Source: an uncultured Alphaproteobacteria bacterium
Lineage (GTDB): Bacteria > Pseudomonadota > Alphaproteobacteria > RF32 > CAG-239
Reading direction: 5' to 3'
Length of the DNA: 45,154 bases
NCBI GenBank assembly: GCA_944390915.1
Contig: CALXRS010000014.1
Span: 1-45,154 of the forward strand
This document shows positions 28,893 to 31,668 of the stretch, piece by piece (within the stretch, counting starts at the first letter, position 1; each line of letters starts with the position of its first letter). The translations under genes and the position numbers were made by a program. The notes beneath the pieces are model-generated. The model was given only the letters and a program-made list of their open reading frames with translations, was not told the DNA's origin and searched no databases.

Positions 28893-29486
28893 TCACATTT
28901 CCTTACGCGAATTGATGGCCAGCTGAATGGTTCCTTCGTCCATATAATCCAGCTCGGCGCCGACGGGGATGCCCTGCGCCAGCGTGGTTATTTTAACGCC
29001 GGTGTCTTTTAGCCTGCTGACCAGATAATGTACGGTTATCTGTCCGTCAACCGTTGCCGGCAGGGCGAGGATAACCTCCGTAATTTCCCCTTCTGCCAGC
29101 CGGGAAAGCAGTTTTTCAATATTCAGATCTTCCGGCGAAACGCCGTCCAAAGCGGAAAGCACTCCGCCCAGCACATGATACTGCCCGCGATAAAATCCGA
29201 CCCTTTCCATGGCCCACAAATCGGTCACGTCCTGCACGACGCAGACAGTGGAACGATCTCTTTTTTCCGACGAGCAGACGGAGCAGGGCGACAAAGTGTC
29301 AAAATTGCCGCAAACTTCGCAGGTTTTTATGTTTTCGGCAACGCCGGTCAGCGCTTCTATCAAAGGCAGCAGCACGCCTTCCTTTTTTTTCAGCAGATAA
29401 AGCACGATCCGCCGGGCGGAACGTGTGCCGAGCGCCGGCAGTTTGGCGATGATTTTTATCAGTTTTTCTATTTCTTGTCCCGACAA
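28893..29486 (-). CDS. recR: Recombination mediator RecR
   Basis: RecR works with RecO (and RecF) to load RecA on gapped DNA. The 197-residue protein has the helix-hairpin-helix start (LPALGTRSARRIVLYLL), the four-cysteine zinc finger (Cys56, Cys59, Cys68, Cys71) and a Toprim domain beginning VCVVQDVTDLWAMER. The Toprim acidic residue is Gln85 where the family has Glu; RecR is not catalytic, so this may be tolerated. The start is TTG 29486, supported by AAGGGAG eight bases upstream. It follows ybaB by 13 bases in the dnaX-ybaB-recR operon. Confidence 0.96.
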   Translation of the reverse strand: MSGQEIEKLIKIIAKLPALGTRSARRIVLYLLKKKEGVLLPLIEALTGVAENIKTCEVCGNFDTLSPCSVCSSEKRDRSTVCVVQDVTDLWAMERVGFYRGQYHVLGGVLSALDGVSPEDLNIEKLLSRLAEGEITEVILALPATVDGQITVHYLVSRLKDTGVKITTLAQGIPVGAELDYMDEGTIQLAINSRKEM

Positions 29487-29499
29487 TTCGGCAACTCCC

Positions 29500-29820
29500 T
29501 TAAAAAGGCAGCTTCAGGCCGCCGAGATTTAAGCCGCCGGTAATATCTTTCATGCCGTCGCTCATCATTTTGTCTGCTTTTGTTTTGGCATCGTTAAAAG
29601 CCGCCAGAATAAGGTCTTCCAGAATATCTTTTTCGTCGGCGACGACAAGGCTTTGGTCTATTTCCACCTTTTTGGCGTCAAATTTGCCGTTTAAGGTGAT
29701 TTTTACCATTCCGCCGCCGCTTTCACCGGTAACTTCGCTTGCCGCCAGCTTTTGCTGTGCTTCTTCCATTTTTTTCTGCATCAGTTGGGCTTGTTTCATA
29801 ATGCCTTGCATGTTCATCAT
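29500..29820 (-). CDS. ybaB: YbaB/EbfC nucleoid-associated protein
   Basis: A 106-residue member of the YbaB/EbfC family, small DNA-binding dimers. It has the Met/Gln-rich helix (MKQAQLMQKKMEEAQQKL), the glycine-rich GESGGGMVKITLNGK strand pair, and the EDLILAAFNDAKTKADKMM helix. An alternative start (ATG 29814) would drop two residues. It lies five bases after dnaX and precedes recR, the standard trio. Confidence 0.95.
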   Translation of the reverse strand: MMNMQGIMKQAQLMQKKMEEAQQKLAASEVTGESGGGMVKITLNGKFDAKKVEIDQSLVVADEKDILEDLILAAFNDAKTKADKMMSDGMKDITGGLNLGGLKLPF

Positions 29821-29825
29821 ATTGA

Positions 29826-31541
29826 TTAATCCTCGTTGTTAAAATCATATTCGTGGTTAATGTCAAAAGCTTCTTCGGCGGTTTCGTCCGTATCCGTTTT
29901 TTCTTCCGCCGGCGTTGTTTTGCGGGTGACGGTTTCTATTTTTGCGCCGCGAAATTCGTTGAGTATGGCTTTTACCAGCGGTGTCTGGGCAACGTCTTTT
30001 TTATCTTTTTCCTTTTGCGCCGTTTCCTGTTCGGCGATGGTGTGTTCCACTTTTCCGGCCGCAACGTCAAAAGCCCATTTGCCGCCGGTCAGGTTTTCAA
30101 GCGTTCGGTTCAGTTCGGCCAGCGTTTCGCTTGTCAGCCTGTCGTCCGCCTTGAAAGTTATTTTACCGTTGGCAAAGTTGCAGATTTCCATATCGTGTTT
30201 GAGCATATAAACAAACCGCGGCTGCTTTTTTTCTTCCAAAAATTTCAGCAGTTCGTTTATATCGGCAAAAGAAACGGCGGGTGCGGCTTCTTTGGTTGCC
30301 GGAGCAATTTCCGCCGCCGGGGAAGGAAAAACGTCAGCGCCGGCCGCGGGAGATGTTTTTATGCCGGATTCAGATTTTTTTTTTATGCTTTCCAGCACTT
30401 CTGCGGGAGAGGGTAGGTTGGCGGAATAGGCTATTCTGATTAAAATCATTTCCAGGGCGTCTATCGGCACCGGCGCCGTCTGCATTTCGTTTAGACCCTT
30501 AATCAGCATTTGCCAGATTTTGGATAAAGCGGCGACGCTGATTTTGGCCGATGTTTCTTTCAGGAAAATTTTTTCGCTTTCTGAAAGGGAAGGGTCGTTA
30601 ACAAAAGCCGGCAGCAGCAGGGTTTGGGTCAAATTGTGTGTCAGTTTGAGCAGGTCGTTGAGCACGCTTACCGGATTGGCGCCGTTTTGGTACATTTCTT
30701 TCAGTTTTGTCAGCAGAGTTTGCATCTCTCCCGCCGCCATCAGCGTAAAAATTTCAAAAGTCCGGTTGCGGTCGGCCATGCCGAGCATATCCCGTACAAT
30801 ATCCGCGCGCACTTTGCCGCCGCCGAGGGAAATCGCCTGGTCAAGCAGCGACAGGCCGTCGCGAGCCGAACCGTCCGCCGCCGCGGCGATGGTGTGCAAA
30901 GCTTCGTCGTCGGCTTTCAGGTCTTCCGCCGCGACGATTTTGTTGAAAAGAGACATCAGATTGTCTATCGACAACCGCTGCAAATCAAAACGTTGGCAAC
31001 GGGAAAGCACGGTAACCGGAACCTTGCGGATTTCGGTTGTCGCAAAAATAAACTTAACATGCGCGGGCGGCTCTTCCAACGTTTTTAACAGAGCGTTGAA
31101 AGCGTTTTTGGACAACATGTGCACTTCGTCGATGATGTATATTTTGTAGCGGCAGTTGGTCGGTTTATAGCGCACCCCATCCAGAATATCGCGGATATCG
31201 TCCACACCCGTGCGGCTGGCGGCGTCCAGTTCCAGCACGTCGATATTACGGCCGGCGGCAATGGATTTGCAGTTTTCGCAAATGCCGCAGGGATGCGTTG
31301 TCGGTCCGCCTTTGCCGTCGGCGCCGGTGCAGTTCAGAGCTTTGGCTATCAGCCTGGCGGTCGTGGTTTTGCCCACGCCGCGGATACCGGTCAGAATATA
31401 GGCATGATGCAGACGGTTGTTGTTGATGGCGTTGGTTAAAGTTTGCACCAAAGCGTCCTGCCCGAGCAGATCTTCAAAGTTCTGCGGGCGGTATTTGCGG
31501 GCGAGCACAACATATTGGTCTTGTTTGTCTTGTTCAGCCAT
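29826..31541 (-). CDS. dnaX: DNA polymerase III subunits tau and gamma
   Basis: DnaX is the clamp-loader ATPase and, as tau, the organiser of the replisome. The 571-residue full frame has the N-terminal AAA+ domain with Walker A GIRGVGKTT (52-60), the zinc site built from Cys71, Cys85, Cys88 and Cys91, DEVHMLS Walker B, the sensor 1 ATTE and SRC finger region, domain III to about 375, and a low-complexity linker then tau-specific C-terminal domains. An A10 run at codons 386-389 (30375-30384) sits exactly at the junction: one added A gives a stop after one codon (390 residues), one lost A gives a stop after a few (393 residues), each a gamma-like product. The start lacks a strong Shine-Dalgarno. 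The 4.5S RNA gene is immediately upstream. Confidence 0.96.
   Translation of the reverse strand: MAEQDKQDQYVVLARKYRPQNFEDLLGQDALVQTLTNAINNNRLHHAYILTGIRGVGKTTTARLIAKALNCTGADGKGGPTTHPCGICENCKSIAAGRNIDVLELDAASRTGVDDIRDILDGVRYKPTNCRYKIYIIDEVHMLSKNAFNALLKTLEEPPAHVKFIFATTEIRKVPVTVLSRCQRFDLQRLSIDNLMSLFNKIVAAEDLKADDEALHTIAAAADGSARDGLSLLDQAISLGGGKVRADIVRDMLGMADRNRTFEIFTLMAAGEMQTLLTKLKEMYQNGANPVSVLNDLLKLTHNLTQTLLLPAFVNDPSLSESEKIFLKETSAKISVAALSKIWQMLIKGLNEMQTAPVPIDALEMILIRIAYSANLPSPAEVLESIKKKSESGIKTSPAAGADVFPSPAAEIAPATKEAAPAVSFADINELLKFLEEKKQPRFVYMLKHDMEICNFANGKITFKADDRLTSETLAELNRTLENLTGGKWAFDVAAGKVEHTIAEQETAQKEKDKKDVAQTPLVKAILNEFRGAKIETVTRKTTPAEEKTDTDETAEEAFDINHEYDFNNED
30375..30384 (-). promoter_or_regulatory. 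A10 slippery tract in dnaX (probable tau/gamma switch)
   Basis: Ten T residues on the plus strand give ten consecutive A in the dnaX message, read ATA-AAA-AAA-AAA-TCT (Ile386, Lys387-389, Ser390). Insertion of one A yields an immediate ATC-TGA, and deletion of one yields AAT-CTG-AAT-CCG-GCA-TAA. It lies at the end of domain III, where gamma ends in other bacteria. Polymerase slippage on such runs makes gamma in Thermus thermophilus, and ribosomal frameshifting does so in E. coli. No E. coli-type downstream stem-loop was identified. Confidence 0.6.
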
Positions 31542-31573
31542 CAGGGTCTAAAAAGCTTTCTTTCTTAAAAAAA

Positions 31574-31668
31574 GGCGGAGAGTAACCAACCTCAGGCGGT
31601 TTCGTTACGGTTGCTTCCTTCCGGACCTGGCCGGGTTGGCGAATGCCTGATCCGGCACCCTCCGTAGT
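31574..31668 (-). ncRNA. ffs: Signal recognition particle 4.5S RNA
   Basis: Read leftward, the RNA begins near 31668 (ctacGGAGGGTGCCGG) and contains the SRP domain IV signature GGCCAGGTCCGGAAGGAAGC (about 31614-31633), with the asymmetric and symmetric loops that bind Ffh. The 5' GGAGGG pairs with the 3' CTCTCC before 31574, closing a hairpin of about 95 bases. Seven T residues (31567-31573) follow the last stem, giving intrinsic termination, after which dnaX starts at 31541. The small form without an Alu domain is typical of Gram-negative bacteria. It recruits Ffh for co-translational membrane targeting. Confidence 0.95.

Follow-up and report, generated by a model that had tools for sequence, protein, structure and literature searches.

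The dnaX gene of an uncultured alphaproteobacterium carries, between the clamp-loader domains and the tau tail, a run of ten A at which transcriptional slippage is probably the main route to a gamma-like short form of DnaX; neither the slippage nor the short product has been seen experimentally. The gene occupies 29826..31541 on the minus strand of the window, by which we mean the whole stretch of 45,154 nucleotides analysed here. It encodes the tau subunit of the clamp loader as one uninterrupted ORF of 571 residues, with a computed mass of 62.9 kDa, and is named DNA polymerase III gamma/tau by NCBIfam (PRK09111, 730 bits against a cutoff of 604). Pfam places the AAA+ region at residues 28-190, the lid at 199-242, domain III (PF12169; 30390..30812, minus strand), the last domain common to both predicted products, at 244-384, and the tau C-terminal domain (PF12362/DUF3646; 29928..30266, minus strand), which the short product would lack, at 426-538. 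Residue 384 is the last of domain III and residue 426 the first of the tau C-terminal family, which puts the run at the junction of domain III with the linker, 68% of the way along the gene.

The tract and the stops behind it can be read directly in the DNA. The plus strand has T10 at exactly 30375-30384, which is A10 in the dnaX message on the minus strand, taking up the third base of codon 386 and the whole of codons 387-389 (ATA AAA AAA AAA, followed by TCT GAA), as an earlier note on this DNA had claimed. With one A added, translation runs to ...SIKKKI and then TGA (30370..30372, minus strand), giving a protein of 390 residues and 42.9 kDa whose last residue is Ile390; a -1 ribosomal shift would end at the same stop. 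With one A lost, it runs to ...SIKKNLNPA and then TAA (30359..30361, minus strand), giving 393 residues and 43.2 kDa; this is also the stop reached after a gain of two A. These translations agree with the earlier note that slippage in either direction leads to a near stop, and the masses, which are computed only, match the roughly 42 and 62 kDa it had predicted.

In the proposed mechanism, the RNA-DNA hybrid realigns while RNA polymerase is on the T10 template, so that the message would gain or lose A. Messages with 10 A, or with 10 +/- 3n, would yield full-length tau; with all other A counts, the ribosome would meet one of the two stops a few codons past the tract and release the 390- or 393-residue protein. 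Such a protein would keep the ATPase, the lid, and the domain III needed for the clamp-loader ring, and would be without the tau tail, which by homology with E. coli is expected to bind polymerase and helicase. That slippage actually happens is inferred, and so are the proportion in which the short product is made, its stability and its function.

E. coli gamma has 431 residues. The tract does lie at the junction of the clamp-loader domains and the tau tail, where the earlier note had put it, but not exactly where gamma ends in E. coli, as that note had added; it comes about 50 residues earlier. In a comparison with PDB structures, residues 10-382 align with E. coli residues 3-369, homology ending at residue 382 (E. 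coli 369), and the tract matches in position the 373-residue E. coli chain (1-373) present in clamp-loader crystals (1jr3_A). From this match to a crystallized fragment we infer that the short product could plausibly build a clamp loader.

Two ORFs follow dnaX on the same strand, in the order dnaX-ybaB-recR: the one immediately downstream (29500..29820) we take, from general knowledge, to be the gene for the nucleoid-associated protein YbaB/EbfC, and the next (28893..29486) is presumably recR on the same basis. A small SRP RNA (Rfam RF00169, 60.8 bits) lies just upstream of dnaX, also on the minus strand, at 31571-31666.

Conservation of the tract was assessed at two depths. A10 is present in 13 of 13 genomes of the genus, at DnaX identities of 69-77%; in one of them (L005) the phase of the run differs (ATT AAA AAA AAA ACT), but its length is ten there too and both stops are present. 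For the order, a set of 85 non-redundant dnaX genes was drawn from the family and one sister family, the presence of a tract playing no part in their choice. Every one has the run, A9 in 59 and A10 in 26, always in frame, and it starts at alignment column 374 in 84 genes and at column 375 in the remaining one; it persists even where protein identity has fallen to 53-60%. Its most frequent form is GTA AAA AAA AAC TCT AAT TTA, the third tract codon being AAC in 57 genes, AAA in 26 and AAG in 2. Flanking residues are highly variable, so the comparison proposed in the earlier note, whether the tract is kept while linker codons vary, came out in its favor. Five other genomes of the family (G030, G042, G101, G108 and G121), four of them more than 90% complete, had no DnaX match at 1e-60, through an assembly gap or some other cause.

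The constraint extends to synonymous positions. Both lysine columns of the tract use AAA, in 170 of 170 codons, whereas the share of AAA is 57-91% in the alignment's 24 remaining conserved lysine columns, a control that has its phylogeny in common with the tract columns. The residue preceding the tract is Val, Leu or Ile, and its codon ends in A in 84 of 85 genes, even though, with one gene taken per genus, only 3-27% of the codons used for that residue end in A. The serine codon near the tract is TCT in 74 of 81. With the protein fixed and codons drawn at the frequencies of the gene in question, an A9 run has a probability of about 0.1 per species, or 6e-19 over 17 genera if these are treated as independent. 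In a scan of synonymous identity, the windows centered on columns 373-380 are the eight highest in the gene, making the tract with the next three codons the top peak of synonymous constraint in dnaX; the z values serve for ranking only, since pairs are not independent. Synonymous sites are frozen only at the tract and the adjoining stop-bearing codons. Selection on the nucleotides of the run, and not on the peptide they encode, is what this pattern shows.

Stops in the shifted frames are similarly constrained. Counted from the last tract codon or the codon following it, both shifted frames reach a stop within six codons in 98-99% of species, whereas the mean over all columns of the gene is 14%. 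In the frame entered by insertion of one A, the stop occupies one fixed position in 75 of 85 species, formed through TC(T)-(AA/AG/GA), with all three stop codons in use, and lies near by in the others. In the other shifted frame (-1 A or +2 A), one position holds the stop in 71 of 85, and a stop occurs within nine codons in 85 of 85. At these sites the real frame encodes any of several amino acids (N, S, E, D, K), yet a TAA, TAG or TGA stays; what selection preserves here is the shifted frames and not the peptide. Considered together with the tract-codon and synonymous-constraint statistics, these stops lead us to reject chance or codon bias; on comparative grounds, the conservation of the A10 tract in dnaX is not accidental. 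The gene thus has what a Thermus-type slippage site should have: a single ORF for tau, a run of at least nine A between domain III and the tau tail, close stops in both non-zero frames, and selection on nucleotides. The earlier note had likened the device to that of Thermus, and stops kept in both shifted frames are indeed what the literature describes there, the slippage itself remaining an inference in our case.

The tract is not confined to this order. Among 249 other alphaproteobacterial dnaX genes, the 41 codons that follow domain III contain 37 runs of A9 or longer, against 1.2 expected, and all remaining codons contain 15; 15 of the 37 come from one deeply sampled family. The genes with such runs span 26-61% GC, the top value belonging to Marinicaulis sp. 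(L196). About a dozen species of the window's own family carry a second A9 or A10, 11-24 codons downstream and in another phase (GAA AAA AAA AAT AAT CTG A; loci L085, L088, L090, L099, L101, L106, L112, L114, L118, L133, L244 and L245), mostly with stops in both shifted frames 4-6 codons on. On a tree of 190 class-wide sequences the tract is patchy, with at least about 16 state changes, so the trait appears to come and go, although a quick tree of this kind cannot tell gains from losses. Most GC-rich alphaproteobacterial dnaX genes sampled have no A9 tract, and Caulobacter gamma comes from ClpXP processing; slippage is therefore not the only route in the class.

In several families the arrangement is inverted. 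In family f7, the real frame stops directly past an A9/A10-G run (for example, GAA AAA AAA AAG TCT TAA) in 15 of 15 genomes with a dnaX match, from three genera (L306, L355, L364 and L383-L394), and the tau tail is open once one A has been added (the +1-nt frame), so that tau needs a shift. Maintenance of the tail in a shifted frame across the whole family is strong, if comparative, evidence that a shift occurs there. Either polymerase or ribosome may be responsible in f7, which holds A_AAA_AAG; no consistent stem-loop or Shine-Dalgarno stimulator was found in this family. Family f140 (L343 and L367, 2 of 2) is inverted at an A10, GCA AAA AAA AAA GTY CTG ATG ACN TCG TAR, with the tau tail again in the +1-nt frame. 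Family f59 (L304 and L356, 2 of 2) and one gene from f107 (L327) are inverted without an A-tract, the tail lying in the -1 frame behind C_CCA_AAG and A_AAG_GGG, respectively. These shift sites look like canonical ribosomal heptamers, and ribosomal shifting thus seems to be in use in some relatives.

That observation gives weight to a rival account of the window's gene, in which ribosomes undergo E. coli-type programmed -1 frameshifting on A_AAA_AAA or A_AAA_AAC and end at a TGA, TAA or TAG two codons on, with no need for heterogeneous RNA. We regard this as unlikely, but still to be reckoned with: the heptamers of f59 and f107 lie near the equivalent place, slippery heptamers lie within the tract itself, and the close, conserved -1-frame stop that frameshifting calls for is present and held at one codon in 75 of 85 genes, about as firmly as the other stop (71 of 85). 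The conserved stimulators it also calls for are both missing, as searches of the 85 genes found neither a conserved stem-loop downstream (mean z of -0.08 relative to same-gene windows) nor a Shine-Dalgarno stimulator upstream (mean rank of 0.46 among same-gene positions). The efficient bacterial frameshift site A_AAA_AAG (PMC5009743) is absent from the window's dnaX, AAG is the third codon in only 2 of 85 genes, and the heptamer is mostly the less efficient A_AAA_AAC. A run of 9-10 A is longer than any slippery heptamer requires, and A positions outside any single heptamer are frozen as well. A -1 shift would gain nothing from the +1-frame stop, which 85 of 85 genes keep, and several other families (f23, f40, f91 and f116) keep that stop (the -1/+2 A frame) immediately behind the run while the stop of the other frame is 7-19 codons away, an arrangement ill suited to -1 shifting. 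The lack of a conserved stem-loop or Shine-Dalgarno element, in combination with a run exceeding the ribosomal heptamer, favors Thermus-type slippage. Ribosomes also slide on runs of A, so sequence alone does not tell how much of the shifting would be transcriptional and how much translational; if the two are taken together, there is little doubt, from the comparative evidence, that the site is a recoding site.

Explanations that dispense with recoding fare much worse. A conserved lysine-rich peptide (K-K-K/N-S), forming a charged patch, say, or directing partial digestion by ClpXP as in Caulobacter, where gamma is produced by proteolysis (PMC5422525), could leave the A-run as a by-product, and the two lysines are in fact invariant in 85 of 85 genes. 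Such a peptide would not account for the frozen synonymous positions, for the nearly constant A-ending codon of a residue that may be V, L or I, for the preference for TCT, or for the conserved stops in other frames, and elsewhere in the class the run is held in a different frame (GAA AAA AAA ACT or GAA AAA AAA AAG), the nucleotides being kept and not the peptide. We give this account very little credence, and the synonymous freezing is our reason for rejecting it. Least credible of all, barely worth entertaining, is that the run has no part in making gamma and is neutral A-rich sequence in an AT-leaning genome or a tract for phase variation at the DNA level. Runs of A9 or longer are indeed plentiful in this genome, about 45 in number, but most of the others lie outside genes or at ORF ends, and the dnaX run is the only one of five A10 runs to fall mid-way in a long sense ORF. 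The tract is, moreover, conserved across 17 genera and found even in the 61% GC dnaX of Marinicaulis. As for switching, the dnaX frame is intact in 85 of 85 genes, on which ground phase variation is rejected, and dnaX is essential in studied bacteria.

Transcriptional slippage, the reading we prefer, bears on a long-standing argument over whether gamma is a real, selected product. According to Baranov et al. (2005, PMC1088944), slippage that merely shortens a protein is difficult to recognize from comparisons. In the order studied here, the tract and both stops are frozen throughout and the linker around them varies; this comparative pattern is strong evidence that selection acts on the making of a short DnaX, in a class whose known route to it is proteolysis. 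A broader proposal can be put forward only tentatively, and we would not yet lean toward it: recoding at the junction of domain III and tail may be an old, repeatedly rewired alphaproteobacterial trait, in which direct, tandem-double and inverted slippage and inverted ribosomal heptamers interchange, and for which the proteolytic gamma of Caulobacter substitutes where high GC has removed the A-tract. The site described here also makes it possible to set proteolysis, slippage by the polymerase and shifting by the ribosome side by side, within a single class, as different ways of arriving at one product. The window's dnaX is a further case of a known type of slippage, one that is widespread and directly testable, and the question of gamma can now be put to RNA reads that possibly already exist.

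Our search of open-access text yielded no earlier description of slippage in an alphaproteobacterial dnaX, which does not prove that none exists. The closest known system is dnaX of Thermus thermophilus (A9; reviewed in PMC5009743 and PMC1088944), where a near stop follows whenever the number of A changes by anything but a multiple of three. Both genes have a single ORF for tau, a homopolymer of at least nine A, near stops in both shifted frames, and a short product that is gamma, known in Thermus and inferred here. Thermus belongs to another phylum, its run lies seven-eighths of the way along the gene instead of right after domain III, and the second tandem tract sets some relatives of the window's gene further apart from it. 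Two-ORF dnaX genes with 7-10 A at the gamma/tau junction were reported by GeneTack from Chlorobium and others (PMC3711429); families f7 and f140 share that inverted plan, with a long product requiring a shift, while the window's gene is of the direct type, with tau in frame. The -1 frameshifting of E. coli dnaX likewise depends on recoding within the linker to obtain both gamma and tau from a single gene, but the window's gene lacks A_AAA_AAG, the Shine-Dalgarno element and the stem-loop, conserves stops in both frames, and has its site about 50 residues nearer to domain III. Caulobacter crescentus, of the same class, makes the same pair of products by ClpXP processing (PMC5422525) instead of recoding, and such processing may coexist with slippage.
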